This document shows positions 24,097-55,609 of a DNA stretch of 64,000 nucleotides, piece by piece. Both the position numbers and the translations under genes were made by a program. Source of the DNA: Isoetes taiwanensis (Eukaryota > Streptophyta > Lycopodiopsida > Isoetales > Isoetaceae); NCBI GenBank assembly GCA_021234155.1, contig JAJEKV010000012.1:9700448-9764447 (forward strand), given 5' to 3'. The first letter of the stretch is position 1. The number at the start of each line of letters is the position of its first letter. The notes under the pieces were generated by a model, which saw only the letters and a program-made list of their open reading frames with translations, had not been told where the DNA came from and searched no databases.

Positions 24097-25640
24097 TCAT
24101 TTTCTTGCTAGCTGCACATTGCAATGTATTTTGCATGAAGTTAATAGTGTGGTCCACAGACATATGTCAGGATGCAATGTCGTTTTGAGCAAATTTTCAG
24201 CTTCATTGACACAGGCAGCATGACCCAGTAGATCCACCAAACATGTAACATGAAATATGTTGTGCGCCTGATGATCACCATATTGGCTCATGCTCTTAAA
24301 AAAAAAAATCCTTCATCCACTAGGCCTAGCCTGTTTATTGCAGTAAGAATGCCAGTAAAAATTATAGCATTTGGTTTAACACCATCATGTTGCATATCTA
24401 GAAGGGACTGCATTGTAGGTCCAGCTTCACCAAGCTGAGCATATTGTAACTATTGTCCCCCAAGACACTACACTTCTATTGGGCATTTTATCAAAGACAT
24501 TCCGTGCCTCTGCCAAGCTCCCACATTTGGCATATATATCAACGAGAGCATTACCCAAGACACTATCATGTTGGAATTTATCATCAGTAATTTGTTCATG
24601 GATACTCCTTCCTTGTTCTATGGCACCTACATTACCACATGCTTTCAAAACACTCAACACTGTAACCTTAATAGGCGTTATCCACATATTTTCAAAACAT
24701 TGGAAAACAAGATAACCTTCTCCAAGCTCAGCATATCCCAAAATCATAGAATTCCAAGTTATGACATTTCTACAAGGCAATGTTATGAAAAAGCTCCATG
24801 CTTCTTCCAAACTGCCAAATTTGGCATACATATCAACGAGAGCACTTCCAACAAAAATGTCAGATTCGAGTTTATTTTCAAGAATCTGCTTATGGATGTC
24901 CTTACCTTGATCTAAGGACCCAATACTACTACATGCTTTCAAGATACTTGAAAATGTGAACTTATCTGGCATTATGCTCTTGCATTGCATACTCTGAAAA
25001 CATTTCAAGGCAAGGTGGCAATCATTGCACCCCAAGCTACTACATCTAGATTCTGGAGTTTGTCAAATACACTTTGAGCTTCCTTCAAGCTCCCACATTT
25101 GGCATACATATGAACAATTGTACTTCCCACCACAATGTCAGATTGAAGACCACTTTGAATAATCTGCTCATGAATTCTCCTACCCTGTTCTACATAGTCC
25201 AATGCTGGAACACGCTTTTAAAATGCCTGGAAACGTAAATTTATCTGCTTTCTTACCTGATTCCTCCATCCGTTCATATAAATGGAGCACTGTTCCACAA
25301 TCTCCAAGTTTGGCATGCACGTCAATAATTGCATTCCATGTACATTGACTTGGTCGTAAAACCTTGATGAAGGCTTAAATTGCTTGATCCAAACTTTTGC
25401 AAGAAGTAAACAGACGAATAAAGTGATCAGAGAGACATGCATTTGAAGCAAGCCCACCTAGTCCTATCAAAAACTATAATGTTTACCAGATTCCAGGTCT
25501 CCTAACTTGGTGCATTCTTGGACGAGCACGTAAGCAGATTCTCGGGAGATAGATATGCCTTGCATCTTCTGACTATTTTCCGTGAAATGAAAAGCCTCAT
25601 CCAAGTGTGTGGAATGCTTGAACGACATTCTTTGCACGCA
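24097..25640 (-). pseudogene. PLS-type pentatricopeptide-repeat (PPR) pseudogene
   Basis: Read on the - strand from 25.6 to 24.1 kb: LFTSCKSLDQAI, CTWNAIIDVHAKLGDC, DKFTFPGILKACSSIG, RRIHEQIIQSGLQSDIVVGS, HMYAKCGSLKEAQSVFDKL, then an open 202-residue segment (25035-24427) with further P, L and S motifs (FTFSSILKACSSIGSLDQGK, VGSALVDMYAKFGSLEEAW, VVSWGTIV), and finally LVDLLGHAACVNEAENLL with LLTSCKIHCNVQLARK, which looks like the start of an E domain. At least three frameshifts or stops and an A run at 24297-24309 break it. Such proteins bind organelle transcripts and direct RNA editing; this copy cannot be expressed whole. A DYW domain was not found. Confidence 0.85.
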
Positions 25641-26964
25641 CAGAAGAACAGAAAACAGAGGGTTCCTTCTCTAGAATCCGGTTAGCCGGTTTCGAAATCG
25701 ATGATCGCCAATTTACACCCTATAGTAAGTTTGGAGCAGTCATTGGCATATTCATGGCATATACTAGCATATACTTAGAATATGCCATAAACCCACATAA
25801 ACAAGAGCTTGCCCCCCTAGGGGCAACCCAAAAAATTCAAATACGTTAACCAAAACAACCCGTAACGTACGAGACAATCTTATACCATTCAGGCCAGTTG
25901 AGATTTTTGCAGAATTCAAATTTCCCACGTGTGAAATTTGAACTTGGCATATGATCCATTCTTGATCAACCAAGTGCTCACAACAATTCTTCTCAGATGC
26001 TTCACAACTCAATTAAATAATAGCCTTTTAATTTTCTAACAAATTCAATCTTGGCAATAACAAAATCTGGTGTGGCTTGGGTCATCTAATTTTTTTTAAA
26101 TCAACAATGAAAGGAATTAGAAAAAGCCAAGAAAGTAGGCCTTGGAGATAGAAGAAGTCGAGAATATATTTGCCCAAATTGTGCTATACCTTGAGCCAAA
26201 AGGGATCATACAATCGTTGCAAAACATAGTAGATCTAACCTATGGGGTTAGATACCGTACGTAATCTACATCTTATATATCTCAAACACCTAGTTTTTCT
26301 TGATATCTAAAACGCAAGAACATCATCTAAAAACCATGTTTACATGCTTGCACCCATAATAGTGGGGAAAAAAAGGACCTTCATTGCATTGTGTAGCCCT
26401 TCCACAGCCCCTAGCGTGCCTATCTGGTATTTTTTTTTTGTTAATCTCCTTTTTTTTTTCCTTTTTGGGCTTGAGTGACAACTGAACATTGAAGTGGTTA
26501 AAATATTTTCTAGGACAAAATACATAAGTATTATATATTGTCAATAGCAAGTCATAGAGAAACGCTAGTTTTAAAAGATGTATGACACAAGATGATTTGC
26601 TGCACTGCTATATCAATAAATTCAACCAAACCAGAATAGGCCCAAAGTAATCTTTTCCAACAAAACTCCTAACTTGTAGCAAATGGTATCATGTATTGGT
26701 ATCTGTAACATAAAATATTTGGTAGATGCAAGAAAGATATAGGACATGAAATGCTTGGTAGATGCAAGAAAAATATAAGACTTTTATATCACATCTACTT
26801 GATTTTGCTCGTTGCCCATAATATCGTTGATAAATACAAGATAGCCAGAACCAAACCCCCTAATATGGGCTACACTTTCTATGCCATATAGGTTGCATTG
26901 GCTCATTCACATAATTTGTCCATGTAATTAGATATATCAAAATAAGAATTGAATTTCAATTAAT
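25641..26964. other. Spacer with no supported gene
   Basis: AT-rich; contains T runs at 26429 and 26451 and short composition-driven frames only. Confidence 0.4.
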
Positions 26965-27035
26965 TTTTATCATCCGCGAAGATCAAACTGGCCTATGGGA
27001 CCCAAACAAGGAATACATCAAACAATTGCATAATA
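26965..27035 (-). mobile_element. Tail-only copy of the GC-rich LINE family (copy 3)
   Basis: The + strand reads TTTTTATCATCCGCGAAGAT, then CAAACTGGCCTATGGGACCC and AATACATCAAAC, matching the tails at 15276 and 3871 over about 60 bases. No LINE coding sequence precedes it on the - strand. Confidence 0.5.
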
Positions 27036-27525
27036 TGAAGTTCTTATCATGCCCATGTCTTCAATTTCTATTGGTCTTACATCTAGTAGATTATCAAAAG
27101 ATATGGTTTGCTGTCCTCTGGTCCTAGCATTAAAATCACCTACCAATATCACATCTTGGTCTTTGTAATGACGAGTGTCAGATTCTACTTACAACCCGTC
27201 AATTATAGAACTTGGCAAGAGCTTCGGGTTTTAATGGACGACGCCAATTGCATATTAGATTCCATTAACCGATTTTAGATCAGACATTGAAAATGAAACT
27301 CCTAGTCTTAACCTCTTGTCATTTAAATTTAAGATTTGGCAATTACAAGTCATTACGAAGCTAAATCGAACCCCAAATTTCAACATTTACTAACACGACA
27401 TTTCATAATTCGTTGTTATTTTAATTCCAACAATAGAGGAATCTGACCTTGAGCTCATGGAAAGGATTATTGTCAGAAAACATACCCATATGGCATATCC
27501 ATGCGGCACTGCGTGGACATCTCAG

Positions 27526-27682
27526 TGATCCAGCTCAAGAGCCACAATCGTGACTCTTGGCTGGGGCTACATCCCTTTCTGGTTATGTCTCTTTGAGGCC
27601 TATGTAATGCTATGGTGAGGGCTCTTTTACCAGTCCAATCCATTCTTATTTTGTATATCCATTCTCTATTTATATTTTAGCA
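27526..27682 (+). repeat. 5' LTR of the TRIM-sized element
   Basis: 157 bp, TG...CA ends, nearly identical in plan to the copy at 28464-28621, with many transition differences such as TGATCCAGCTCAAGAGCC versus TGATCCAGCCCAAGAGCC. Confidence 0.75.
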
Positions 27683-27695
27683 TGGTATCAGAGCC
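27683..27695 (+). promoter_or_regulatory. Primer-binding site (initiator Met-tRNA)
   Basis: TGGTATCAGAGCC directly follows the LTR; this is the standard plant retrotransposon primer site. Confidence 0.8.
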
Positions 27696-28463
27696 TTCAG
27701 ACTAATTTGCAATCCAAGGCCTGGCAGAAATGCAATAAGCTTTGGAATTTAGGGATTCAGTGGGAGCAGTGATTTTGGTGTTCTTCCTCAAAAGCAATAC
27801 TGGGAAACAAAATGGATTATGGATAGATTACACAAAAATTTCTCATTTATAGAAGAAGCATGGCTGCTGCAAGCTATTAGGTTGTTTCTCCAATTATGGT
27901 GGAGAAATCTGATGGAGATAAGTTTTACATACGGAAGATAAGAGTTAGATCTTTATTGATGGAGAGAGATTTGGTGAAGATTGTCGATGGCAGTGAAACA
28001 AAATCTGTTGATCCTGATGCAGCAACTAAGTGGGAGATTTGAGATGCAAGATCAAGAGCTATATTTCAATAATGTCTCAGTGATAATCTGGCCCCACTAT
28101 AATACATTGCAAGACTTCGAAGGAGATCTGGAATTTTCCAGAAGGCATCTATGGAGACAAGGGTAAATCAACTATGGTGTTCCTGCGCCGCAAGCTCTTG
28201 GATTTGCGAATTTTAGATAGCAATATTGTGACTTTTGTAAGCGAATATAATTAAGCATCAATTAGCAGCCATAGGTTTGCCTATTGATGATGATGAAGGA
28301 GTGGCAATATTGTTATGAGAGCTTCCAAGCATCTATGATACATTATCCTTCAATCTGTTGAGCATTAAAGATTTGAAACCTCAAGGGTTATTCAAGCTCT
28401 TCTTAAAGAGGATAACAGGCAAAAGATCAAAGAGGGGTCTGCAATGGAATATCCAGGTGGGAG

Positions 28464-28621
28464 TGATCCAGCCCAAGAGCCACAATCGGGACTCTTGGCT
28501 GGGGTTGCATCCCTTTCTAGTTACGCCTCTTTCAGGCCTACGTAATGCTACCGTGAGGGCTATTCTCACCAGTCCAATCCATTCTTATTGTGTATATACA
28601 TTCTCTGATCATATTTTAGCA
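28464..28621 (+). repeat. 3' LTR of the TRIM-sized element
   Basis: 158 bp, preceded by the purine tract at 28455-28463. It ends TTTTAGCA and is followed by ATTAT. Confidence 0.75.
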
Positions 28622-28629
28622 ATTATCTC

Positions 28630-28956
28630 TGTCTATGTCGGTTGCTTGTAAAAGGGCATGTTACGCGGAGCAAAATAACAAAGACTAGAATAAGTTCCTG
28701 TGAGTCCTTTCCTGATGAGAATGAGGATTTGAGAGCAAAAAGTGGTGCTGGGGGCGTCAAAAGCACTTACACTGAAATCCAACCTCCAATAACAGGAAGA
28801 AAAGATGAGGAGGTAGAGTTCGTAGATCTCGAACTAGTTGAGCTAGAGCCCGCCAAGCAGCCTGTTCCAGTACCCTTAGAATCAGAAACAGGTGTCTCTG
28901 GCTTTGTGGCATCTCAAGAAACAGACCCAAAGGGAGATGAGAGCCCTGTGGACTAG
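28630..28956 (+). CDS. Candidate terminal exon, acidic protein of unknown family
   Basis: An open frame beginning nine bases after the TRIM ends at a TAG (28954-28956). The peptide includes FPDENEDLRAKSGAGGVKST, DEEVEFVDLELVELEPAKQP and ends TDPKGDESPVD. Its Glu/Asp/Pro-rich, non-repetitive composition looks like the flexible tail of a real protein. No ATG lies in a good position, so it would be a last exon whose upstream part may have been separated by the TRIM insertion. The family is not recognised. Confidence 0.3.
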   Translation, partial: CLCRLLVKGHVTRSKITKTRISSCESFPDENEDLRAKSGAGGVKSTYTEIQPPITGRKDEEVEFVDLELVELEPAKQPVPVPLESETGVSGFVASQETDPKGDESPVD

Positions 28957-29771
28957 GAAGAACCTCCCCCCGTATAAATTTACACCGACAGGTTTCAATT
29001 TTAAAGTGTCGGTATAGATTTATACGAGAAACGCTCTATATGTATTGTATTATAAATTCAAGACGAATTTTGAAATGGAATCCATTCATCTTGTCTCCAG
29101 CAATGTTTAATTACAGCAACTACCATTTATTTTCTACATACTTTATTCTTCTGTTTTCATAAATTGTACTTTTAAGGCCTTTACAAATTATGATGCAAAA
29201 GGACACTCTATGTTTGCTTCTTTTTTAACAAAATTAATTTGTTGGTTCTCCAACGTTAGAGAACTACCTTAAAACTGTCTTTTTTTCTTTGCTTTATTTT
29301 TCTTTTGATCACATAGTTATAAAAGTGTTACTTTTTATTTGGTATTCTAAACATCAAGTGTTCAACAATCTTTCATGCTCCCTATTTCATCTCTTTTTTG
29401 AATTTTCCAGAATTTTCAAAGGAATCTTTCAAATGAACTTCTTAAATAAGTGCGTTTCGTTTTAAAGCTTGTATTTTCCCTTTTCAACAGTTAATAGCTT
29501 AAGAGTTTCTGAATCGTCGTCTTCATCTGATTCATTCTTTTATTCAATCTCAGTTCTGGCCAATTGAATTGCCTCCTCCCTACTCTTTGCTATTGTTCTA
29601 GTAAAGGTAGATAAAGTTCCACATTTTGAAAACATTTTTGGAAATGGCAAGTACCTATTGGCTCACTGTCATGGTTGCTCTAGCAGTGTCTAGATCTGCA
29701 CACAATGAATCAAACTTATGATCTAAGTAATACTATTTTATCTTCATATTTTATCTTCCTCAACTCCTTTT
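28957..29771. other. AT-rich spacer
   Basis: T-rich, with an imperfect inverted repeat around 28971-29025 (CCGTATAAATTTACACCGACA against TGTCGGTATAGATTTATACG). No coding sequence is seen. Confidence 0.4.
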
Positions 29772-30110
29772 TTATGAGATCTTAACTTCATGTGTACTAA
29801 TCATACAGTTCCATGCATCTCTGGAACTCATAGATCTCAATTTTAGCATTATACTTGGTGCCACTTTGCACAGTACAATTGCCTTAGCCTGGTTCTCCTT
29901 CATGTGATCTTTCACATGACCTCTATTGCTCGCCTTATATGTTTTAGTAGCCTTTAAGGTTACTAAGATCTTTGCCACAGAACTACTGGCATCTCCAATA
30001 TCTTTGCTTTCTACAACCATGCTTTGTGATGCACTCTCTCCTGGCTCTATGACTTCCCATAGGCCTTCAAACTTTAAGACTTCCATAATCATCTCTTTCC
30101 AAATCTAAAA
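29772..30110 (-). pseudogene. Ty1/Copia gag N-terminal fragment
   Basis: The - strand frame reads MEVLKFEGLWEVIEPGES, then a variable stretch, then QAKAIVLCKVAPSIMLKLRS and SSRDAWNCM...HEVK. This is the plant Copia gag N-terminal domain (UBN2/DUF4219 type), which builds the virus-like particle. The frame stops at 29772 and no protease, integrase or RT follows, so the element is truncated. A primer-binding site lies just upstream at 30171-30185. Confidence 0.75.
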
Positions 30111-30170
30111 ACCATCAACACTTTTATATCAACACTGGTAGCTCCGAATCGAGTTAACATTGTATCTAAC

Positions 30171-30185
30171 CTGCTCTAATACCAC
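30171..30185 (-). promoter_or_regulatory. Primer-binding site of the minus-strand Copia remnant
   Basis: The - strand reads TGGTATTAGAGCAGG, a close variant of the initiator-Met primer site, about 60 bases before the gag remnant. The LTR would lie at higher coordinates (from about 30188) but its far end was not defined. Confidence 0.6.
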
Positions 30186-30399
30186 TGATAGCAATTTCGA
30201 ACAATGCTCTAACCTTCTCTAAACAATGTAAGGTTAATGGTTTAACCAAATTTGCCATATCACAATTAATTTTCTAATTCAATTGTTGCACTACTACTGA
30301 ATCACATGATGCCAAACTCAAATGTATTTCTTTATGGAATGAATGGTTACTCCGAATCATGTATATTATTAATAGGTGCTAAGATGTATGCACGCTTCC

Positions 30400-30587
30400 A
30401 CTATATAGGATTTTCCCTAGAAGGCGTGGGACGAATGACACCTCCATGCCCTTCACCCGGACACTTGCCCATCACAAGTGGTCCGAGTCAGACGAAGGGC
30501 ATTTCCTTAGTGATTGAGTTCCCATGGAAGGGAAATTTCCCATGTTTATACGATGGGGGCATCGTATAGGTTCGTAGAGCGTCACAA
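30400..30587 (+). repeat. 3' part of an LTR (family shared with 61.9-62.1 kb)
   Basis: Sequence ending GAGCGTCACAA abuts a primer-binding site. It contains GGACGAATGACACCTCCAT and the hairpin ATACGATG-GGGG-CATCGTAT (30549-30568). The same order (GGACAAATGACCCGTCCAT, ATACGATGGGAGCATCGTA, GACGTCACAA) occurs at 61951-62100. The LTR's left end was not found. Confidence 0.55.
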
Positions 30588-30598
30588 TGGTATCAGAG
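30588..30598 (+). promoter_or_regulatory. Primer-binding site (initiator Met-tRNA)
   Basis: TGGTATCAGAG follows the LTR end. The internal region it introduces leads into the H3-fusion ORF at 31222. Confidence 0.65.
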
Positions 30599-31221
30599 TA
30601 ATGAAGCCCTGACCGTGTTCTAACTCATCAGATCGATTAGTTGGTAGAGGATCTCTAACATAGGAAATTACCCTAAATCCGTAGGTAGTATGCTATTTAG
30701 CCTAAGTGTGTGAAAAATGAGTAAATTAGGAAGTGAGTTGTAGGATGTAAAACTTGGGCCTTGTTGAGTTTTTGGTAGGAAGAGGTCCCTTGCTCCCGGA
30801 GGCCATAAGTTTTAGTAGGAGGCTCGGATGAAGGCGCTTTTTGTGCCACTGCATTGAAAACATTTGAATAGCTAAGACCCCCTAGAAGCCCCATCAGAAG
30901 ATGCTCCAGATGAGATATTTTTAGAGTTTTGTCAAAGGTGGCGCCGATCGGGAAAAGTGAGTTTAGAATCCAATTTAAAAACGCGAAAACCCCTTCGGTG
31001 CCGCATTATATGCGTCGCGGCGTCGTATAAAATATTTTTTTTTATATGTTTTCAATTTAAAAAAAAAAAACAGCTAGGGATTTAAATTTTCTGAAGACGT
31101 TTTTTTTTTTTCCTTTTTTACTTCCTCTCTCCTCCTCAAGCCGCCATAGCCACCGGACCTCAAGCTCCCCTTCGCCATAGCCAAGCTCACCCAACCACCA
31201 GAGTTGACCACTCTACCATAG
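30599..31221 (+). promoter_or_regulatory. Untranslated leader before the H3-fusion ORF
   Basis: No coding sequence was found. A CGTATAAAAT box (about 31024-31033) followed by T and A tracts and a CT-rich stretch (31110-31150) could be an internal promoter and 5' leader, but this rests on appearance only. Confidence 0.3.
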
Positions 31222-32435
31222 CCAGGCATCATCCTAGCTCCTCACCCCATCGCCTACTTCCTCCTCCACAATTATGTCTCCTTTAGGTATGAGGAGAGCT
31301 ATGAGACACTCTACGTGACCCAGATTTTTGCCGAGCTTGGAAGCAACCTCGCTGGAGATCCCGAGAGGGTCGAAATCCTTCTTGATCAGCTGGTCCATTG
31401 CTTCACGGTAGGAGGCCAGATGCCTTACCCCGTCTTTCACTTGAGTAAGCGGTTTCTACTCAAGTTCAATGCCATTGGCGAAATATACACCCTTGTGGAG
31501 CAGCCAGATCAAGCCCTAATGCTAACCAAGTATTACCCCCCTGAATTTGCGACTGTCAGCAATGAGGAAGCCGCAAGAGTGGAGGCACAGAAGGTCATGG
31601 ACCTGGCCATAGCAGTTGATGCCCAAGAGGTGGCGAGTGGAGATCCAAAGGCTAGAGGTGCGCAATATGTTTTGTTGGAAAATGGAGAAGCCATTATAGA
31701 AGGATGCCCTCTTACCCTGCCCTTGTGTTATTATGATGAGGAGACTGCTTCCTATGGGATGACCTCCCTAAATACATTACTCCCGAACTCCAACATCCTA
31801 ATGAACTAGAGATGGCGGCCAAGCCAGATAGGTATATAACTGAGATGCTAAGGAGGATTGAAGTCCGTCAAGCACTGGAAAGTCATGCACAAAGAGAAGC
31901 CGAGCGGGTAGCAGAGAATCAAGCCAAGCAGGATGCTGACGAACTTCGGCTACCCACGATAAAACGAAGGTGTAAGAGTACTGCACACAAGTTGGAAGGC
32001 AGTTATAAGGAGCGCCTTCAGACAATGGGCGAAATAGGCAAGGCTATCTCCTCCAGTCGACGTCAAGACCGGGTTTGCGCTGCTGGACACCTTCCTACTA
32101 CAAGAAAGACCCTCCCCAAGCTGCTGGCTTCCCCGAAGAAGCCCCATAGGTGGAAACTTGATACAGCGGCTTTGAGGGAGATTCGCAAATATCAGAAGAC
32201 TATTGAGCTTCTGCTATGCAAGCTGCCATTCCAGTGGTTGGTTAGGGAGATTGCCCAGGAAATCAAGGCGAACCTTAGGTTTCAAACCTATGCCATACTT
32301 GCATTGCAGGAAGCCATAGAGGATTACCTGATGGTCCTTTTTGGAGATGCTAACCTTTGTGTCATTCATGCCAAGTGCGTCACTATAATGCCAAAGGATT
32401 TACACCTCGCCCGGAGAATTCGAGGGGATAATTGA
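31222..32435 (+). pseudogene. Histone H3-fold domain fused to an unknown helical N-terminal region
   Basis: The frame opens at 31222 after a TAG, with no clear ATG. It reads AYFLLHNYVSFRYEESYETL and onward to about 31760, where a one-base shift moves to the frame [20 protein letters not shown], continuing through [20 protein letters not shown] and a charged, probably coiled, stretch. Residues encoded at 32136-32432 are an H3 histone fold without gaps: [69 protein letters not shown], then a stop. Against canonical plant H3 from memory, about 70 percent of these residues agree; the N-terminal tail is short and altered ([12 protein letters not shown]). H3 normally pairs with H4 in the nucleosome core. 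R63, R69 and R116 are C, W and C. Lying behind an LTR and primer site, it may be a gag-position ORF that captured H3. A retrocopied H3 pseudogene is the alternative. Confidence 0.75.
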
Positions 32436-32730
32436 TAGTGTGGGAATTGTACACTTTCTTTGCATTGTAACATTATTGTACATTTTGTCCTTTGGTATAA
32501 ATATAAACTTTTCAGGCTTTATGTTACATACATAAATGTTTTGTGTAATTTTATATTGTGTTTTATAGAAAAAAAATAAAAATAAAAAAAATAAATAAAT
32601 AATGATGAAATAACTTTAGCGGGCGCTGATGTCAGCATACTTAAAGTCACTTTTGCTTTTATAAGGTTCCCTCATTTCTTTTCTGCTCCTCCAAGCACAC
32701 ACTCTCCTTCTACTCCTTTCTTCTTGACTC
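32436..32730 (+). promoter_or_regulatory. 3' flank of H3 ORF and 5' leader of the next ORF
   Basis: TATAAATATAAAC and an A-rich tract (32570-32605) follow the H3 stop and could be its polyadenylation region; no histone stem-loop is seen. CTTTTATAAGGTTCC (32656-32670) and a CT-rich leader precede the ATG at 32731. Confidence 0.3.
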
Positions 32731-33330
32731 ATGGACTTCTCTAGGCGCCAACAATTGTACATGGACGGGTGGGACCCCCAGATTCCCTTCGAGCTTCTCC
32801 ACCCTTATTTGCTCCAAGAAATAGATCTCATCAGTAACATGCAGGCACACCCCGAGTATACTGCATTCTTCGAGTTTTACATCCAGGACATGGTTGCCCA
32901 GTGTATCCAACACGGAGACCCTCCTCAGCGATATCTTAGCCAAGCACTTTTGCTACAGATGACAGGTGGCGACCGCCATGCCTCTAACGTCCTCCGTGGC
33001 ATTATTCGTTGGGCCAAGCACCCTCTCACCCTATAGCGGAATGATCGGACCTACTTTGAGGTCCGCTTCACATTGGCCATCTTGATGGACCATTATGTGG
33101 AAGATGAGGATATACTCGCAAAGAGGAGGGAGATGCAGGTCCCCTCGTCTTTTGAGGATGATGAGCGAGTCGATCTGAATGATTTCATGCAATGGAAACA
33201 ACTGGCTGAGGAAATGCCAATATATAGAAGCCAGGGGTCCAAACTTACCGGACTGGATACATTACCCGCAATGTGGATGAATCGTGTCATCGCCAACCTC
33301 AAGCACAAGAGTCCTCTGCAAGCTAGCTAA
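32731..33330 (+). pseudogene. Unknown ORF (one in-frame stop), possibly retroelement gag-like
   Basis: It starts at an ATG after a TATA-like box and CT-rich leader. It reads MDFSRRQQLYMDGWDPQIPF and ILMDHYVEDEDILAKRR, with a single TAG at 33034-33036; the frame then continues to 33330. The next readable piece, KLAKYCMDDFLDFSPTEFPP (about 33319-33380), is in another frame, so the original protein was longer. It is helical and acidic, with no recognised catalytic motif. The family is unknown; a capsid-like retroelement ORF is a guess from its position. Confidence 0.4.
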
Positions 33331-34200
33331 GTACTGCATGGATGACTTCCTCGATTTCTCTCCGACTGAGTTTCCACCATAGGTTCAGTGTTTGTTAAGC
33401 TTCCAGCAATAAGACATTGAGCCCTCGATAGCCTTTGAGGTTGCGACACCTGATACTGCAAGAAGCCCCATCAGAACCTTCCGAGGAAGCCTTCATCGCT
33501 ATGGGACCCTATGTTCCTAATATTAATGACGTCGAAGTTTCCATGGAACCAGATGAGGAAGGGGGGACTTGCTAGAAAACAAAGCCCATGTCTGGGAAGA
33601 GAAGTAGGAAGCCAAGGAAGAGTAAATGCTAGTGGATATTGATAAAGAAGTGGCCACGTCCACTTTGGATGAGATAAAGACCTTGGGTAACCATGTCACA
33701 CATTTCTTCCTTTTAGCTTTTAAGGAAGGGCAGGTCCTATTCATTGCACGGGATCTAGCTCCTGAGGTCTAGGCATCATGGTGGACACTTCGCGTCTTAT
33801 CAACTTTGGCAGGCCACATGAAGATAAACTACCGCATGCTCACTCTTGTGCTCATACGACGTGACCTTGCCATTGCCGCCTTAGGCCACGATATAGCCAC
33901 CTGGATGAGCACGAAATTGCTCGTGGCAACACCTTTGGCGAATGCCTTCTTGCCAGAGATTGCATCAGCAGCTGCCCTCAACGTCAGCCCATGCATACCT
34001 TGCTTCGTCATTGATGGCCACCTGAGCCTCCAACTCCTATACAGGAAGACGCGGGACCGAGTTCGTGATCTTACGTTCTTATGTAATAATTGTATTGGCC
34101 ACTCACTATGACTTCCTACACACATATCACTTTCACACAAACTACCTTAGCCTTCCAAATCAGTGACCTGCATATAAAATCTACAGCTTATTAACATTTA
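33331..34200 (+). pseudogene. Decayed continuation of the unknown ORF
   Basis: Fragments such as IEPSIAFEVATPDTARSP and AFIAMGPYVPNINDVEVSME appear in alternating frames to about 33560, followed by short open pieces to 34111 that look coding by composition but match nothing recognised. CpG and TpG richness and many TAG/TGA stops suggest methylation-driven decay. Confidence 0.3.
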
Positions 34201-34460
34201 GTTTTTCTCTGCAGGAATTGTTCACTCATGCTGCTTACACTCTTAGAGGCAGCACAGCATATTTCTCATCTTCTATTTCAATTCACTACTGATTTTGTTA
34301 CTATTCTGCAAATTACATTGCTACTATTATGTGCTTACAGCAGCACTTATTTCTTTTGTGTTCATCTGATAGCTTTTACTAGTTTGAGTAGCCTATCTAT
34401 AAAGGTTTACTCAATATGTTGTACCTTTTTCTATAATTAATGAAAAAAACCCCATTCATT

Positions 34461-34505
<45 letters not shown>
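34200..34505 (+). mobile_element. 5'-truncated poly(A) retroposon tail
   Basis: Non-coding 3' sequence ends TTTCTATAATTAATGAAAAA then CCCCATTCATTC and a run of about 45 A (34460-34504). This is the layout of plant L1-type LINE 3' ends. The left boundary is approximate and no target duplication was found. Confidence 0.55.
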
Positions 34506-34507
<2 letters not shown>

Positions 34508-34559
34508 AAATCATTTTCGATTTGATCCATACGCACTTCTTATCTATAATCCATTTTCT

Positions 34560-35240
34560 CTTTGATATAGATGGCATACGGAACCCACCCTGGGCTACCC
34601 CAGTAGAACATGGGCGGTTAACTCCCGAGTAGGAACTTGTTTTCATAAAGTGCCAGATGGCCGAGCTCTAGGCATATGTACTGCAAAGAAGCCCTCTGCC
34701 TATGGTTCAGGAGTATGATCCCGAGATGCCTGCATGTTAGTCCTGTGCCTCCTGGTATAGGACTATTCATGCATACGACGGACCAAGTCAAGTCCAAGGA
34801 TCCTGAGCGAGGTGCAATTCGGTCATCCAAGGCCCAAACAAAGACCAAGCGGCGAGACCCACGCGGTCAAAGCACGGGTGCGCTACCAAGAGGCGGCGCG
34901 ACAAGTGATGACCCGTCACCGCTTTGTGTCGGCGTCGGCGTGATTCTAGGCACTTCAAGAGGCACCGCCAACATTCCTGCAAATCAGGCCTCCTTCCGAG
35001 TCGGCACCGAGAGATCGGTCAGTGTCTATATTGGGCCAAAGGCCATTGTACTATATATATGAGTAGAGCTAGCACATGAGTTTTAGATGAGTTTTGAGTC
35101 TTGTCTCTCTTGGTCTTCTCTCGATTGTGAGAGCTCATGTATGTTCATCATTGATATCAAGGAAGCTTATCATTTTCCTCTCATTGTTCTCTTTTGTTTT
35201 GTTTTCTTCTTCTTGTTCTTTTCTTGCAAATCCCGGCGTG
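34560..35240 (+). repeat. Putative 5' LTR and leader of the Ty3/gypsy element
   Basis: TACTATATATATGAGTAG (35049-35066) looks like an LTR TATA box, followed by a pyrimidine-rich stretch ending near GGCGTGACA (35235-35243). The gag ORF starts 130 bp later. No matching 3' copy was found after 41.3 kb, so LTR status is inferred from position and promoter-like features. Confidence 0.35.
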
Positions 35241-35370
35241 ACATAGTCCCCCGGATTCTCTGTTAGATCAAGGGTCCTCACGGAGGGGTCTTGCGGCGTT
35301 CGAACCCGGACCCCAAACACTGTATGGCCATTGCCGGTGCGATTCGATTTTCCTTTCTTCAGCCGCCAAT

Positions 35371-36997
35371 ATGCGTAGAAACTTCACACGGAAGAACTCC
35401 TTTCCTGTGGCGTCGTCTCGGCTTGGGCGCCATCATCGAAGGGAAGCTGTTCGTGACATGTATGGATCTGCTTATGACATTGAGGGAGGCCACATTCGGT
35501 CTAGGGCTCAGTCGGCGCCACCCACCCCTCGTGTCATGTCTCGTCCAAATTCCCCACCTCCAGCGTGCAAACATTGCTCCTGACCTCGATCCACCTCATC
35601 ACTATCGGGGAGCCCTATCAGGCTCCACCTTCTCAACCTTACTTTCATACCCCAGAACATGCCTACATCCATCATTCGTCTGGCCATACGCCTCTGCCTT
35701 CACAACCATCATCTCCCCCGGGTGGGCAAGGATATCCACATGTCTCTTTTGCTCCTCCACAGGACTTTCCCTTCCCTACCTTTCCCCACCGCTCTTCCCC
35801 GTTTTTACAATCTACGGACCTCAAAACCAATGATCGGGGGCACCTCCAGTACCTCCACCTCAGCCACCCCTTGGCCGAGGGTCTTTCCAGGCACCATACC
35901 ACCTCCAACTCCACCTCAATATACTCACTATCTTTGTTCTGTCCAGCCAAGCACTTTCACCTCTACCTTTCGGACCCTTTAAGTCGACTTATCCCACCTT
36001 TGGCAACACGAAAGGCAAACCCTTAGACCAAAGTGCTTCGGGCCCACATGGAAGAATTTGAGGCTCTGGCTGTCCTGAATGGTCATGCGCAACCTCAACT
36101 GAAATTCCACATCTTTTCCACCACACTGCGTGGCTCCCCTCATCAATGGCTCATGTCCAACAAAAGCCACTGGAAACAAGATTGGTCAGAAATGAGAACT
36201 GCTTTTCTTTCTCACTATGGGACCACGGATGATGATCAGCTTCATCTCAAGCAACTCAATGACCTTCAACAAGAGCCCACGGAGTCTGCCAGGGATTTTG
36301 CAGATCGACTTCACATTCTGCTCAGCAAACTCAAGGAGTACCCCCACGAGCGGATCTTGGTCGGTTTCTCCAAGGACTTCCTCCGGCTATCCGACTCATG
36401 GTGAATACTGCTACCAAGACTTTGGAGCGGGCTATCGATCTTGTCAATCACTTTCGGTCAATGTTTCCTCTTGTGGCGTGGCTCTTGGGAGCTCCCTTTC
36501 ATTCCACCCGTCATGGTTCCCCATCGCTGTTGTTCAACCTCAACACGCCAATCCGCGGCCTTGATCGGATCACGGTGCCATATCGCAAATATCAAGGCCA
36601 CTTGGCGAATGAGTGCAACTCCACCAATGGCCCGCCTCATTGTAAAAGATGCAACATGTGCAATCATGCCACCGGAAGAGTGCACTTTCGCACTCATCCT
36701 ACACCTTTCCGCAACAAGATGGTTTATCAAGTGCAAACAACACCTCGGCACCAATCGCAATATCGCTCGGCCACCACCGCTGCGGCAACCCAATCAACTC
36801 TATCAGCAGCAGAGCAACAACGGGGACCCAACACACGCCCTCCTTTTGATCCTTCAAAGCTTCGGTGTTTATCACCGCCAAGAATGGGGTCATACCACCA
36901 CGGCGTGTCCTCAACTTCCACAAGTTCAGATGCAGCTTCCTGGCACAAATCAGACCACATCGGTCCGCCTCACGGCTTACCAACTCTGGATTGCTAA
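35371..36997 (+). pseudogene. Ty3/gypsy gag (capsid and degenerate zinc knuckle)
   Basis: The start at 35371 (MRRNFTRKNSFPVASSR) leads into a Pro/Ser-rich N-terminus, with frame changes near 35580 and 36030. A clean capsid segment follows at 36033-36404 (LKFHIFSTTLRGSPHQWL, WSEMRTAFLSHYG, ESARDFADRLHIL), the retrotransposon gag domain. At about 36574-36615 the knuckle C-x2-C-x4-H-x4-C survives only as V-x2-R-x4-H-x4-C: the first two cysteines are lost. Gag packages the element RNA. At least three frameshifts inactivate it. Confidence 0.75.
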
Positions 36998-41254: not shown

Positions 41255-41782
41255 TCCCGGTTTGTCTTATATAGCCAACCGAGGAACTCCTTGTCGACGT
41301 GGACCAATCACAAAAATAGCCAACGTGTTTGCAATGCAAGGCTGTTTCTAAAAACAATGAGAATCTTTTCTCCCGCCGCATATCTAGCCATGGTACCTTC
41401 TGACACATTCGTTTTAATGATATCCCACTTCGAGTTGCCAGCATTAAATGCCATTCCTTCTTTTCACGACCGTCGAACATTAATGTGTGTCCTTTGGCCA
41501 CCTGTCACATCCCATCATTCTCTCACGCCTCATCTCCACCGTTCATTACTTCTCCCTTTGTTGTTCGGGGACTTAGCCAAATTTTTTGCCTCTCAATCCC
41601 CTCCTTGGCATCTTTCGACACCTGGCACCATCAAGCGATTCTGATTTAAGCCCTCATCATACCCCTTTCGCCTCCATTTGCGCGCCCTAAACCTTTTTCG
41701 TCTCTGCGCCTTCGCCGTCCTTAGATCCTCCGGTTCTCTCGCTCTCGCCTTTGCATCACCGTTCTTTTCTGAAGCTCTTTGC
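41255..41782. other. Intergenic, possible divergent promoter region
   Basis: It lies between the antisense ORF and the ORF at 41783 and is CT-rich on the + strand from 41640. No LTR copy matching 34.6-35.2 kb was seen. Confidence 0.3.
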
Positions 41783-42296
41783 CATGGCTGCCCCAAAATT
41801 TCCTACACTTCAAGCTTCTGCTCCCAGGGAACCGACTCTTTTCGAGTCAGTATCCTTCTTGACGCCCACTTTCCGTGAAGCCCTTGTTGGCCCGAATCGT
41901 GAAGTCGCAGAACGCCAAAAGCTTTACGAATTTTCACAAATGGAACTTCCGGCTCCAAATCCAGACCAGTTGAAGCAGTTCCTCGCTCACATCGTCAACA
42001 GCCCGCATGGATACACTACAGTGGTCGATGGCACCACCATTTCGCTGACCCAGCACCTAATTTCTGAGGTATTCCATATCCCTTTGCAAACCCCTTGTTT
42101 ATCTTGGTCTGCCATCCAGGATCTAGATGTCACTAAGTTTGGTGCTCCTGCTTATCAAGCAAACGTGCATCGCCTGACAAATATTGACAAGCCCCATGAA
42201 ACTTTTGTTAAGTTTCTGTGGCGCAAGTTCCTTGGGTATTCTATCAAGAACACCCATATCAATAAGCCTTTCTATAATATGGTGATCACTGCTACT
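41783..42296 (+). pseudogene. Truncated unknown ORF, possible retroelement/plant-mobile-type ORF
   Basis: It starts MAAPKFPTLQASAPREPTLF after a CT-rich leader and runs open until cut by the chromovirus fragment at about 42297. It contains VVDGTTISLTQHLISEVFHI, similar in feel to the 'putative plant transposon protein' segments found in front of some gypsy elements. Helical; no catalytic motif. The last few residues before 42308 come from the other element. The family assignment is a low-confidence impression. Confidence 0.35.
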
Positions 42297-43208
42297 CGCT
42301 CCTCATGAGCCTCATGAATATTGCTGGGGCGTTGAACAATTCAAATGACATCACTGTGGACTCGTAATGGCCATATCTCGTCCTGAATGCAGTCTTATGG
42401 ATGTCTCCTTCCGTGATTCTGATCTGATGGTAGCCTGCCCTCAAGTCTATTTTGGAGAAAACCTTCGCTCCCTGCAGTTGATCTATCAAATCATCAGATC
42501 CAGGCACCGCATACTTGTTCTTGATGGTGTGCTTGTTCAATTGACGATAGTCAATGCACATTCTGAGACTTCCATCTTTTTTCTTGACAAAAAGGATTGG
42601 CGCCCCGAATGGAGAGATGCTAGGTCTTATAAACCCTAGGTCTAGTAACTCCTGCAATTGCTTCTTCAATTCCGACAACTCCTGAGGTGACATTCTGTAA
42701 GGAGCCTTACTTGTTGGCTTAGACCTTGGATAAAGTGCTATTTTACACCGACTCCCCTGTAAGGTGGAAGTTGCTTGATCTCATCTGGGAACAAATCATG
42801 GAATTCCTTCACTAGGTTGGCTATTGGCTTTGGCAGCTTGTTTAATGCTTTGGCCTCCTTGTCTTCTTCTGTTTCTAGCTCCTCAACTTCGAGCTTAAAG
42901 ACATAGGCCACTTGCTCCTTCTGTATGCATCTAAATAACTTCTTACTAGACATGCATTGCGTGACTGGGGCGACCTCTTTACCTGTTATCTCAATGATTT
43001 TGCCATTTGACATTATTAAAGCTTCTTATTCTCTGCGCCTCCAGATCCTCTGTCAAACTGTTTCATCATCTTCCCACCAAAAAAACCATTGCAAGCATAG
43101 TATTGCCGGAGCTTTCCATGAGCAACAACTGCATCCCTCCCTCAATGATAAATCATGTTTTCTCTATACCTTTGAAAAGCCTAATTCCTCTTCTTTGGTA
43201 GTAGCGGT
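42297..43208 (-). pseudogene. Chromovirus pol, inverted first half of reverse transcriptase
   Basis: On the - strand: [20 protein letters not shown], then [80 protein letters not shown]. These are RT blocks up to the point before the catalytic YxDD. The sequence ends exactly where the + strand segment at 43211 takes over ([16 protein letters not shown]), so about 0.9 kb of one element has been flipped. A short deletion lies between the PYRG and SPQELSEL parts. Confidence 0.85.
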
Positions 43209-44689: not shown

Positions 44690-45700
<1,011 letters not shown>

Positions 45701-47745: not shown

Positions 47746-48069
47746 CTAATACTAATAATACCAAAACTAATGCCACTTGTATCCCCAAAATGGACTTGGT
47801 TTCCAAGTAAAAGATGCCTTGTTATGTTTATTAAACCAATACGAGTTCAATTGTCTAAAGCACCATCTATCTGCTAAAATATAATTTGTTGTTAACTTGT
47901 AAATTTTGACAAAAAAATTGAGAGATTTCGATGTATAGAACAACATTGTTTCACAAAAATATGTAGGCAACTTCGTGTAAAAACCAACTTAAGTTACACA
48001 TCTTAAGTCGTATGCACAATTAATGCCAAATCATTACTAGTCTATGGCCTGGATCACATAGTTAAAACA

Positions 48070-48222
48070 TAACAAAAAACCACTATTATAAACGCACTAA
48101 CAAACTGAACAAATAAACTACCACATAGAACCACGGTGGTGAACCATAGTAAAGAACTAGTCATAGTTATTCAACACATTAACCCACTTAGTAACATTAC
48201 TTTATTATAATGGTTTTTTTTA
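48070..48222. mobile_element. MITE-like element in triplicate unit 1
   Basis: About 152 bp bounded by TAACAAAAAACCACTATTAT and, at the right, its inverted counterpart TTATTATAATGGTTTTTTTT. Contains the internal palindrome-like CACGGTGGTG. Confidence 0.6.
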
Positions 48223-48261
48223 AAAAGTGATGGAAAAAACTAATAACGATTTTTTTAGGGG

Positions 48262-48441
48262 CCTTGTGATATGCCATATCAACAATCACCAGCGAGTTTG
48301 GCAAGAAGATAGAAGAAATGTTGCCAACGGATCGAGACTTCAAGGAAGCATGGGCAACCTTTGTAAGGAGGCAAGAACGGACAAAGAAAGGGAAACCTTC
48401 AAACATTTTAAGAAGGAAGGTAACCTATTGTACCATAAGAA

Positions 48442-48446
<5 letters not shown>
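48262..48446 (+). pseudogene. Chromovirus RNase H-integrase linker, unit 1 (cut by LINE)
   Basis: Coding resumes after the composite insertion: ITSEFGKKIEEMLPTDRDFK and EAWATF in one frame, then TDKERETFKHFKKEGNLLYH in another, ending at HKNK where the LINE is inserted. The same peptide is uninterrupted in units 2 and 3 (LLYHKNKLCVPESSGIRK). Confidence 0.75.
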
Positions 48447-48494
<48 letters not shown>

Positions 48495-49965: not shown

Positions 49966-52332
49966 TTAGCAGAGTGCCATTTTTTGTAACATGTAGGGTG
50001 ACAGATAGCCATAGCAGAGTAGGAGGGAGGGGCCATCACAGGAGACCAGAATATGGAAGTATCTCTCCTTTGAATTGGACAATTTGTCATGAGTAAAGTT
50101 AGCAGCCACTTTCTCCCATGCTTTAAAGATACTTCTAAGGAGAGGAGAAGTATTAGTCGCACATTTGAACTCATAGAAAAGCGTAACTGGGAGCTGGTGC
50201 TTAAGGGAGGGACTTCCTAAGGGTTTACTTTTATTAATCCAGAACCTAATAAAATCCATAGCAGGAGATTGGAAACCAGAGATGGCTTTCCACACATTTT
50301 TGGCCCCAAGCACTTGGGCCTGGAGAAATAAGGATTTACATCCCAAACCCCCTGACTTTTTACTATGAGTCAGCTGATCCCAAGCAGAAAGATGTGTACC
50401 TTGCCAAATATACTCTTTAATACATTGCTCAATTTTGTTATAGGAAGCCTTGTCAGCAATCAAAGCAGAAGAGAAATAGACATGGCTACTAGCAAGGACA
50501 GAGTTGGCAATCAAAATCCTCCCAGCCAGAGACAAAGAACCTTTAAGGAGGATAAGCTTTTTCCTGATCCTATTAATCAGAGGCTGCCAAGCAATCTTAT
50601 GGGACATGTGAACTGCAAGGGGGAGGCCTAAAAGAGTCAGGTATTGGCCATTAGGAACAAATTTGATGCCATGTGTATTAAGGTCTGGATACGAGCCATC
50701 AGCTAGGATGGAACATTTGGCAAAATTCAGGTGGATCCCAGAGGCAGCACTAAATTTAGAGATGCAGTCCATAAAATTCTTCATATTGTCATTATCAGCT
50801 CTGAGCATGGTAAAGGTATCATCAGCATATTGAAGAATGGAAAGCTGTTGGTTGGAATCAGGCATTTGAAGGCCATGGAGCACACCCTTATCTTGGTAAG
50901 AGAGGACCATTTTAGTAAGAATTTCAGCAGCAATTATAAAGAGGTAGGGAGCCAGGGGGCAGCCTTGTCTCACCCCTCTTTGAATGTGGAAAAAACCAGT
51001 AGGAGTCCCATTGACAATAACACATGAAGTGGCTTTTTGGTTTAATCCCATAATGAGCTTAGTGAGGGCAGGATGAATGCCAATATGGACCATGGCTTTC
51101 TCTAAGAATTTCCAAGAAATACAGTCATAGGCCCTTCTGAAGTCCAACTTGAGGAGGATACAGTTTTGTTTGGTCAATCTATTCCAGTGCAGAGCCTCAT
51201 TTGCAGCTATATAGTTATCCAAAATAGATCTGCTGGGAAGAAATGCAGATTGACAGGCATTCACTTTTTCATGGAGGTGAACCAAAATTCTACCAGCTAT
51301 AATCTTAGCTACAAGCTTGTATAAAGTTGTAGTCAAGGAGATGGGGCGCCATTCATTGGTTTTAGAAGGGGATTCAGTCTTAGGGATGAGGGAGATAACT
51401 CCAACATTGAAGGTTGGATAAATAGTGCTGGCTCTCCAAACCCCCTGAACAAATTGGATGATGTCCTCCTTCATAATAGGCCAAAATTCCATAAAGAATT
51501 CAGGTTGAAAACCATCTATACCAGGACTCTTTCCATGCTTCATTTTCTTAAGAGTTTCAAAGATTTCAGGAAGTTCAGGGACTTCAGTCCAATCATCATC
51601 CATCATATCATTAGGAGGACCAATGATATCAAAGACTTCCTGGATTTTACAGTCTTCTATCAATTCGTCTTTAAAAAGATTAGTGTAAAAATCAAGGAAG
51701 GCTGAGGCAATTTCCTTCTCATCTGTAAGAGTGGAACCTTGTTCAGATTCCAGCTGGGTAATGGAGTTATTAACCAGCCTGTTTCTAGCAATTCTAAAGA
51801 ACATTTTAGAGCTCTCATGATCCAATTGATTGTACATCTTAATTTTACTCCTAAGGGCCATCCCTTTAACCTGGTGTTCTTCAAGAGCTTTGATCTGAAT
51901 TTCTAATTGTTCCTCTCTCAAATGAAGAGAGTCATCCCTAGGATTGCCTTCAAGATCAGATCTAATATTCTTGATTTGTTCCAACAGTTGGACATTATAG
52001 CTTTTCCTTTTCTGAGCAAGGTCTTTTCCCCATTGTTTCACCCAGTCTTTGACTTTCTTCATTTTATCATTGAAGCACTTCATGGATTGGTGTTGGCCAA
52101 TCTTGGGCAGAGAGAGGTAGAAAGAGGTGAACTCTTGACAAAAAGACTTCATTTGGAGCAGAGAGGTGTTAAACTTGAAAGGAGTGTTCTTGCTCCTAGG
52201 GCCAATTTTCAGATCTTTAGTGTCAAGGAAGTGTGGTTGGTGATCCGAGATGGTGCTAGCTATATCTCCAAAGAATAACAACTGGTTGTCTAACCAGCTA
52301 GCGTAATTATGGATATAAAATCTGTCTAGCAT
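49966..52332 (-). CDS. LINE ORF2 reverse transcriptase segment, 788 codons open
   Basis: A long uninterrupted frame begins LDRFYIHNYASWLDNQLLFF (end of the endonuclease: SDHQPHF) and passes through the linker (TPFKFNTSLL), HGKSPGIDGFQPEFF, NEWRPISLTTTLYKLVAKII, NACQSAFLPSRSILDN, LLKLDFRRAYDCISWKFLEK, RGVRQGCPLAPYLF, QYADDTFTM (about 50810-50835, catalytic YADD), FAKCSILADG and LGLPLAVHM. The thumb follows (GSLSLAGRILIANSVLASS, ECIKEYIWQG). RT blocks 0-7 are complete and their key residues retained. As part of a broken ORF2 it is unlikely to be mobile alone. Confidence 0.9.
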   Translation of the reverse strand: MLDRFYIHNYASWLDNQLLFFGDIASTISDHQPHFLDTKDLKIGPRSKNTPFKFNTSLLQMKSFCQEFTSFYLSLPKIGQHQSMKCFNDKMKKVKDWVKQWGKDLAQKRKSYNVQLLEQIKNIRSDLEGNPRDDSLHLREEQLEIQIKALEEHQVKGMALRSKIKMYNQLDHESSKMFFRIARNRLVNNSITQLESEQGSTLTDEKEIASAFLDFYTNLFKDELIEDCKIQEVFDIIGPPNDMMDDDWTEVPELPEIFETLKKMKHGKSPGIDGFQPEFFMEFWPIMKEDIIQFVQGVWRASTIYPTFNVGVISLIPKTESPSKTNEWRPISLTTTLYKLVAKIIAGRILVHLHEKVNACQSAFLPSRSILDNYIAANEALHWNRLTKQNCILLKLDFRRAYDCISWKFLEKAMVHIGIHPALTKLIMGLNQKATSCVIVNGTPTGFFHIQRGVRQGCPLAPYLFIIAAEILTKMVLSYQDKGVLHGLQMPDSNQQLSILQYADDTFTMLRADNDNMKNFMDCISKFSAASGIHLNFAKCSILADGSYPDLNTHGIKFVPNGQYLTLLGLPLAVHMSHKIAWQPLINRIRKKLILLKGSLSLAGRILIANSVLASSHVYFSSALIADKASYNKIEQCIKEYIWQGTHLSAWDQLTHSKKSGGLGCKSLFLQAQVLGAKNVWKAISGFQSPAMDFIRFWINKSKPLGSPSLKHQLPVTLFYEFKCATNTSPLLRSIFKAWEKVAANFTHDKLSNSKERYFHILVSCDGPSLLLCYGYLSPYMLQKMALC

Positions 52333-52930
52333 GCGTAAAGTCCTCCTCGATCACCCTTTCTCTTGTTGCTCCAGGAGAATTTAGTGTTAGAAGATGGGAC
52401 ATAGATAAGGTCTTGGTTGGACATCCAATTGTCCTGTGAATATCTTTCATTAATGGACATGTTAATTTTGTTGCCAAGCTTCATATCACTATGAGGGGTA
52501 TTATTGAAGTCCCCAAGAACCACCCAGTTCTCAATATCTGGTGTCTTGGCTCATCCATTGTTGATTTCAAGCCACATGGGCTCTCTTTCATGGGGGTCGG
52601 TTGAGGCATAAATATTAATGAAGGCAACTTGGCGGTCCTTAATTTGGAGGGGTGAGAAAGCCATCCGTTGGAAGGGCTGATATAGGGTATTGATTAACTA
52701 ACGGGTTGTACCGAAGGTGGCAATCCCCCTTTGGTGCCATCATTTGGGATATAACAGAAGCCATCCGGGATTTAATCCATTCACCCAGATTTCTTTGAGT
52801 CAAATTTGGGGAGTCTATGTTCTTGAATCATAATGATATCCGCCTTGAAATCTCTCACAAGTGGCAATAAACCTTCTCCTTTTTTAGTGGGGCCTTTGAT
52901 ACCCCTCAAGTTCCAGGTTAAGATCCTCAT
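52326..52930 (-). pseudogene. LINE ORF2 endonuclease domain, broken
   Basis: Starts at 52930 with MRILTWNLRGIKGPTKKGEG, then DIIMIQEHRLPKF (with the catalytic Glu). Frameshifts and stops follow between about 52.78 and 52.55 kb, then LGDFNNTPHSDMKLGNKINM and SSNTKFSWSNKRKGD. The GDFN motif is intact, but the domain as a whole cannot be translated. It shares the opening and GDFNNTP motif with the copy at 1602. Confidence 0.8.
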
Positions 52931-54052: not shown

Positions 54053-54060
54053 GAACAAAT

Positions 54061-54498
54061 TGTGCATACCAGAGTCATCCGAAATCAGAAAGTTAATACC
54101 CCATGACACGCACAATAGCCCAATAACCGGCCATGTAGGTTTCATGAAAACCTACTTCAAGATAAGAAGTAGCTACTATTGGCCCGGTATGAAGAAGCAG
54201 ATAGCCAAGTACATTCGAGAATGTCAGCTATGTCAGCAGTCGAAGGCAGAGCAACTTCGAATTCCAGGAGTGTTGGAGCCATTGCCATTGCCAATGCCAA
54301 ATGCCAAATGAAAAGTAATAAACATGGACTTCATAACAGGGCTCTCAAGAATCATATGGGGCAAGGGCGCCGTAATGGTAGTAGTTGACAAGTTGTCAAA
54401 AATGGCGCATTTTGTGCCATGCAGGACCACGGATACGGCATTAGATACCGATGTGTTGTTCACAAAGGAGATCTTCCGACTCAATGGGATGCCACGGG
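54061..54498 (+). pseudogene. Chromovirus integrase N-terminus, unit 1
   Basis: VCIPESS-like CAYQSHP/CIPESSEIRKLIPHD, then HNSPITGHVGFMKTYFKI, YYWPGMKKQIAKYIRECQLC (HHCC zinc-binding domain) and MDFITGLSRIIWGKGAVMVV, VDKLSKMAHFVPCRTTDTAL (first catalytic Asp). A TGA after the zinc domain (54309-54311) separates the two frames; the segment ends at the unit junction. Confidence 0.8.
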
Positions 54499-54653
54499 AA
54501 ATTGAGAGATTTCGATGTATAGAACAAAATTGCTTCACAAAAATATGTAGGCAACTTCGTGTAAAAACCAACTTAAGTTACACATCTTAAGTCGTATGCA
54601 CAATTAATGCCAAATCATTACTAGCCTATGGCCTGGATCACATAGTTAAAACA

Positions 54654-54805
54654 TAACAAAAAACCACTATTATAAACGCACTAACAAACTGAACAAATAA
54701 ACTACCACAGAGAACCACGGTGGTGAACCATAGTAAAGAACTAGTCATGGTTATTCAACATATTAACCCACTTAGTAACATTACTTTATTATAGTGGTTT
54801 TGTTA
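54654..54805. mobile_element. MITE-like element in triplicate unit 2
   Basis: Same element as at 48070. The right end TTATTATAGTGGTTTTGTTA is a near-perfect inverse of the left end TAACAAAAAACCACTATTAT. Confidence 0.65.
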
Positions 54806-55008
54806 AAAAAGTGATGGAAAAAACTAATAACGATTTTTTTAGGGGCCTTGTGATGCCATATCAACAATCACCAGCGAGTTTGGCAAGAAGATAGAAGAAA
54901 TGTTGCCAACGGATCGAGACTTCAAGGAAGCATGGGCAACCTTCTAAGGAGGCAAGAACAGACAAAGAAAGGGAAACCTTCAAGCATTTTAAGAAGGAAG
55001 GTAACCTA

Positions 55009-55465
55009 TTGTACCATAAGAACAAATTGTGCGTACCAGAGTCATCCGGAATCAGAAAGTTAATACCCCATGACACGCACAATAGCCCAATAACCGGCCA
55101 TGTAGGTTTCATGAAAACCTACTTCAAGATAAGAAGTAGCTACTATTGGCCCGGTATGAAGAAGCAGATAGCCAAGTACATTCGAGAATGTCAGCTATGT
55201 CAGCAGTCGAAGGCAGAGCTACTTCGAATTCCAGGAGTGTTGGAGACATTGCCATTGCCAATGCCAAATGCCAAATGAAAAGTAATAAGCATGGACTTCA
55301 TAACAGGGCTCTCAAGAATCATATGGGGCAAGGGCGCCGTAATGGTAGTAGTTGACAAGTTGTCAAAAATGGCGCATTTTGTGCCATGCAGGACCACGGA
55401 TACGGCATTAGATACCGCTGTGTTGTTCACAAAGGAGATCTTCCGACTCAATGGGATGCCACGGG
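55009..55465 (+). pseudogene. Chromovirus integrase N-terminus, unit 2
   Basis: Repeats the zinc-binding domain (LCVPESSGIRKLIPHDTHNS and IRECQLCQQSKAE) and core start (VVVDKLSKMAHFVPC). The same TGA after PMPNAK is present as in unit 1, so that stop predates the triplication. The core is cut at MPRE, before the second catalytic Asp. Confidence 0.8.
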
Positions 55466-55609
55466 AAATTGAGAATAGAACAAAATTGCTTCACAAAAAT
55501 ATGTCGGCAACTTCGTGTAAAAACCAACTTAAGTTACACATCTTAAGTCGTATGCACAATTAATGCCAAATCATTACTAGTCTATGGCCTGGATCACATA
55601 GTTAAAACA

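Follow-up and report, generated by a model that had tools for sequence, protein, structure and literature searches.

Chimeric retrogenes have been described as frequent in plants (Oryza, PMC6881317). As in the cases described there and by Wang et al. 2006, the plant locus reported here appears to hold an intronless, reverse-transcribed cDNA and flanking sequence in one frame; it differs from both in having a core histone as parent and a partner without known relatives, and in that neither a target duplication nor an intact copy was found. Plant LTR retrotransposons such as Bs1, Grande and Retand are on record with additional and captured ORFs (PMC7264820, a review; PMC11963269; PMC3726574), and these ORFs likewise have no known relative or are host-derived and lie near LTR primer sites, whereas the H3 unit described below was found with neither paired LTRs nor gag-pol. 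The word "histone" is absent from the main texts of these three papers. Helentrons of mosquito carry histone gene fragments (H4 and H15) in eight copies (PMC4067079) and are thus another case of histone fragments borne by a mobile element; in contrast to the H3 chimera, they are rolling-circle elements of an insect, their fragments have a premature stop, a frame shift and indels, and the passages that describe them mention no in-frame fusion. Single viral histones, including a bracovirus H4 with an extended tail (PMC9145170), also represent host histones captured by a genetic parasite, although the captors are DNA viruses, while our locus has no recognisable viral gene and no recognisable H3 tail. 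Helentron fragments and viral histones are the nearest captured-histone cases that we found. Judged by titles, abstract starts and passages, searches of the open-licence PMC literature yielded no paper on a fusion of a histone with a retroelement. The sequence-only reading of this DNA had recognised no described histone-fold fusion in such a position.

We analysed a window of 64,000 nucleotides from Isoetes taiwanensis (the whole stretch of DNA under study), in which a histone H3 core ends a longer open reading frame. The H3 type and the repeat and PPR content by themselves point to a plant source. Few proteins are as constrained as the core histones, and to our knowledge their fold has seldom been fused with another domain, macroH2A being one such case. 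Chromoviral integrases read histone marks. If carried by an element, the H3 fusion would give mobile elements a novel route to chromatin; if a one-off retro-chimera, it would be an example of histone cDNAs seeding new genes. The H3 chimera is real, unusual and broken, and a retro-chimera is its most likely explanation.

An H3 core at the end of a broken open frame

The features on which the argument turns are as follows.

30588..30598, + strand: match to the initiator-Met-tRNA primer-binding site, TGGTATCAGAG, located by script; possible 5' LTR end
31222..31806, + strand: frame A, N-terminal part without known relative, 195 codons, first ATG not before 31420
31740..32135, + strand: N-terminal part of frame B, 132 codons, charged, helical in a low-confidence model, no significant relative
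32136..32432, + strand: histone H3 core, KKPHR to RRIRGDN, 99 residues, from Pfam, PDB and alignment to plant H3.3
32436..32567, + strand: AT-rich, putatively 3'-UTR-like stretch, 26% GC in 32400-32599
32568..32603, + strand: A-rich tract, 81% A, perhaps what is left of the poly(A) of an H3 cDNA
32731..34111, + strand: ORF2, second coding-like stretch, in-frame stops at 33034 and 33328, later frame changes

On its sequence, the region 32136-32432 is certainly histone H3, corresponding to codons 36-134 of plant H3.3-type H3. It matched Histone in a Pfam scan (E 1.4e-34), and the top match in a PDB sequence search was H3.3 of 7ux9 (E 7.9e-41), which confirms the earlier description of a near-complete, ungapped core of 99 residues from KKPHR to RRIRG. 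Aligned to plant H3.3, the core agrees at 70 of 99 residues, is free of gaps and stops, and differs by at least 32 nucleotide changes; aligned to H3.1, it has 69 of 99 identical and at least 34 changes. The closest type appears to lean to plant H3.3, with L90 retained and Y87 a single transition from H87, while K53 agrees with the plant matches and W41 is uninformative for H3.3 versus H3.1. The stop codon at 32433 comes one codon earlier than the normal H3 stop position. A remnant of the H3 tail (codons 1-35) ahead of KKPHR was rejected, since the best match was no better than codon shuffles (P 0.48) or residue shuffles (P 0.21 and 0.76).

Among the arginines that we take to be the DNA-contact set of H3, R49, R72 and R83 are retained, and the other three are lost as R63C, R69W and R116C; these make up three of the four lost Arg/Lys residues of the core and are the replacements that CGN codons decaying C-to-T would give. 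C110, H113, D123 and R129, presumably the H3-H3' residues, are all retained. Pairing of the H3 product with H4 is thinkable, and its grip on DNA would be weaker.

As had been claimed, a longer open frame has the core as its C-terminal end: frame B, read from stop to stop, occupies 31740-32432 (+; 231 codons; position mod 3 = 0), and 132 of its codons precede the H3 core in frame. The further claim of a single frame beginning about 300 residues upstream of H3 did not hold, because the open sequence runs in two registers, first frame A (31222-31806, +; 195 codons stop to stop; position mod 3 = 1) and then frame B, which share an overlap of 67 nt (31740-31806) within which the register switches. 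No ATG precedes 31420 in frame A and no slippery heptamer XXXYYYZ lies within 31740-31812, and a programmed frameshift between A and B was rejected for lack of such a heptamer in the overlap. From the register switch, the missing early ATG and the missing heptamer, it follows that the copy of the H3 chimera at 31222-32432 is broken. A charged helical stretch had also been noted upstream of the core, and its charge was verified (37% of the 108 residues of 31812-32135, His included), whereas helices were modelled at low confidence.

The lengths of both frames exceed chance. Among 1500 Markov shuffles of 30901-32600 (plus strand), a longest frame of at least 195 codons had P 0.0007 and one of at least 231 codons had P 0, contrasts that are inflated, like those of stop counts below, because frames A and B were picked for their openness. 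Codon-usage evidence for the two frames is mixed. Codon-usage scores and stop counts of the forward frames favoured frame 1 up to about 31.7 kb and frame 0 thereafter; the frame 0 score of 31812-32135 is negative (-10.6), yet the best among six frames. In frame A one reverse frame has a slightly higher score (2.6 versus 1.3) yet has 7 stops, and in the H3 core one also does so (6.4 versus 6.1) yet has 2.

Searches of Pfam, NCBIfam, PDB sequences, IMG/VR and GTDB contigs gave no significant relative of the N-terminal parts. In a search of 5.8 billion proteins, frame A had 124 word-sharing candidates and the N-terminal part of frame B (residues 1-118) had 35, none of either set at E <= 0.001. 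Names returned below threshold for the frame B part were PGA2 (Pfam, E 0.028 and 0.036), AtoC (NCBIfam, E 0.011) and DAAM1 (PDB, E 0.056 and 0.064), and they were taken as chance. A protein search with the full frame gave 7781 matches; the 120 of these listed are all duplicated H3s, with two or more occurrences of KKPHR each, and neither frame A nor the frame B N-terminal part is matched by any of the 120 at E 10. As to whether the N-terminal region recurs joined to H3 elsewhere, the protein database thus showed these parts neither with nor without H3. Structure models of frame A alone (mean pLDDT 32.5) and of frame B with 7 H3-containing matches (mean pLDDT 47.3) were too poor for interpretation. 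Rows of duplicated H3s probably spoiled the frame B model, with which a PDB fold search gave 8 matches, the best at E 3.9.

Proposed origin of the chimera by retroposition

We consider that the chimeric reading frame was most likely made by retroposition and later decayed, with a probability of roughly 0.48. An H3.3 mRNA would have been reverse-transcribed into a 5'-truncated, intronless copy (codons ~36 to the end, 3' UTR and poly(A)), which would have been fused in frame to the 3' portion of an ORF without known relative in a repeat-dense region. The chimera may then have stayed open and been translated for a while as its H3 part diverged by 29 changes in 99 residues, before at least one frameshift inactivated it. 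In a working product, a helical N-terminal part would have replaced the H3 tail and would have been followed by a histone fold capable of pairing with H4.

A 5'-truncated H3.3 cDNA is suggested by three observations, namely that the core is intronless (no gap in the alignment to H3.3), that the tail is missing, and that an A-rich tract follows after a short 3' stretch. Plant H3.3 genes contain introns. The tract at 32568-32603 (+) is 81% A over 36 nt and starts 133 nt past the H3 stop; A-rich runs are common nearby (31059-31070, 34462-34505). A cDNA boundary inside the locus, marked by poly(A) or a target duplication, had been named earlier as a finding that would refute an element-borne fusion, and the first of these marks has a candidate in this tract. 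The second was not found: between the 40 nt that follow the tract and the 147 nt that precede the core, the longest shared word is 6 nt (local alignment P 0.35). Such a comparison would see a target duplication blurred if it were of the same age as the H3 divergence.

The history of the frames can be read from the absence of stops and gaps. Neutral-mutation simulations of frames A and B together at d 0.16, about the divergence observed for H3, led to 5.5-6.7 expected stops on average, where none is observed, and the probability of no stop was 0 and 0.003 (600 runs per setting). Local duplicates have an indel:mismatch ratio of 11:104 in the 5 alignments used (15:122 over all 9 non-self rows listed). 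At this ratio, 32 (minimum) to ~48 changes (d 0.16) in the H3 core of 297 nt should be accompanied by 3-5 indels, again with none observed. Because stops and indels are both missing, these data suggest that the frame was kept open through most of the H3 divergence, an argument that assumes an undiverged H3 source and fails if the source had already diverged. As the chimera remained open, it was probably translated for some time. Compared with neutral change, the H3 replacements are conservative to a slight degree only (P 0.085-0.0975; for hydropathy, P 0.12-0.155), which falls short of demonstrating selection on the histone fold as such.

Alternatives: element carriage, neutral decay and host variants

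The sequence-only reading had offered two origins, capture of an H3 gene by a retroelement and an H3 retrocopy landing in frame. The retrocopy fits better (intronless, tail-less, with an A-rich tract); capture retains the primer-site match and the repeat-rich setting. Capture would mean that the H3 frame is an additional ORF of a non-autonomous LTR retroelement and that the captured H3 spread with it, perhaps reaching nucleosomes or packing nucleic acid, a possibility that we regard as doubtful. Its starting point is the 11-nt match TGGTATCAGAG at 30588 (+), which we take to be an initiator-Met-tRNA primer-binding site; it has CA one base before it, lies on the same strand as frame A, 634 nt upstream, and marks the possible end of a 5' LTR. 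Further plus-strand matches to the primer site occur at 27683 and 57477. The earlier claim of an LTR end and primer site about 620 bp upstream is therefore upheld for the primer match, but neither the other end of the putative LTR nor a partner LTR was found in the window. When 29000-36000 was compared with the whole window by blastn (E 1e-2, with low-complexity filtering), no partner came to light, and on this result an LTR pair enclosing the H3 unit was rejected within the 64-kb window; a partner may lie beyond it. The repeat listing for 29000-36000 holds solely an inverted pair of an A-run and a T-run.

Pfam scans of eleven listed frames in 30.3-34.4 kb (four main plus frames of 31.2-33.3 kb and seven further frames) revealed no gag, protease, RT or integrase, and, with no LTR partner in the window either, the "gag position" assigned to the H3 frame finds no support. 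In favour of carriage, GC content is higher in 30.4-34.0 kb (17 of its 18 200-nt windows at 40-53%, the remaining one at 26%) than in 29.0-30.4 kb (28-40%), and a second coding-like stretch, ORF2 (32731-34111), follows downstream. ORF2 may be linked to the H3 ORF; it is more decayed than the H3 frames, and its pieces have no relative in Pfam, NCBIfam or IMG/VR. An exact 16-mer, AGAAGCCCCATCAGAA, occurs at 30884-30899 in the leader ahead of frame A and at 33461-33476 within ORF2, with a near match at 32131-32147 overlapping the start of the H3 core. Carriage has a precedent in plant LTR elements that bear additional or transduced ORFs (PMC7264820), but N-terminal parts belonging to a widespread family might be expected to have relatives among the 5.8 billion proteins or the viral contigs, where none was found.

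A decayed gypsy element lies downstream on the same strand, with gag at 36027-36401 (Pfam, E 3.1e-12), followed by protease and integrase matches below Pfam cut-offs and by an RT-like reading at 38167 that was recognised by eye and has no Pfam match. A 44-A run (34462-34505) separates the H3 block from this gag, which speaks against element carriage. The run itself was rejected as the 3' end of an H3-bearing insertion, since its downstream flank has no exact match of at least 9 nt in 26001-34455 and no shared 11-mers, and since the sequence upstream of it shows no alignment to the LINE-like end at 48.4 kb. A bolder form of element carriage is conceivable, in which a plant retroelement family would encode an additional H3-fold protein whose tail was swapped for a lineage-specific helical domain, and which would pair with H4 and bring element nucleic acid or the intasome to nucleosomes, our locus being a decayed member; we hold this to be unlikely.

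Rather improbable, in our judgement, is a neutral H3 retro-pseudogene that reads through by chance from unrelated upstream DNA, the fusion protein never having been made. Several results would fit such decay: under it an H3 core without stops, taken by itself, has P 0.16-0.21 at d 0.16, R63C, R69W and R116C have the form of C-to-T change, the replacements are not clearly conservative, and the codon-usage score of the frame B N-terminal part is negative. However, 99 codons stand ungapped at the given divergence and the local indel:mismatch ratio of 11:104, a further 132 open codons in frame B and 195 in frame A go beyond shuffle lengths, and frame 0 is the top of six frames for 31812-32135. Finally, it is highly improbable that the locus is what remains of a rapidly evolving host gene for an H3 variant with an extended N-terminus, for example one of CENH3 type: CENH3 tails are highly variable and a long, unusual N-terminal part is attached to the H3 core here, but the core aligns ungapped to ordinary plant H3.3, the 60 PDB matches listed out of 176 are named H3 or H3.x and none CENP-A/CENH3 by name, and the N-terminal part has no relative in 5.8 billion proteins.

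Repeats and coding stretches elsewhere in the window

Searches for Rfam families and tRNA genes found none. Upstream of the primer-site match, a minus-strand frame (29775-30092) has a weak copia gag match below cut-off (E 0.0019), and an open stretch of 211 codons coding for PPR repeats (24430-25062, -) is probably part of a host gene. Right behind the gypsy pol remains, a 205-codon open frame without Pfam match (41691-42305) is perhaps an additional ORF of the gypsy element. On the minus strand, a 794-codon open frame with a reverse transcriptase domain (49969-52350) is probably a LINE, whose poly(A) end may be represented by the 44 consecutive T at 48446-48489.

A tandem unit of ~956-967 bp occupies 54053-56275, with a 300-nt part present three times at 98%, beside integrase coding at 56235; a further partial copy (97%) lies ~6.6 kb upstream at 47915-48447. 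A direct repeat pair in two pieces (57081-57474/58946-59340, 94%; 56815-57070/58516-58788, 84%) has the primer-site match at 57477 just after its first member (56815-57474), and 56815-57474 and 58516-59340 probably represent the two LTRs of a short element, separated by ~1 kb of sequence that includes a tandem array of 30-bp units (58153-58415). A perfect (ATCT)30 microsatellite was observed at 44840-44959.
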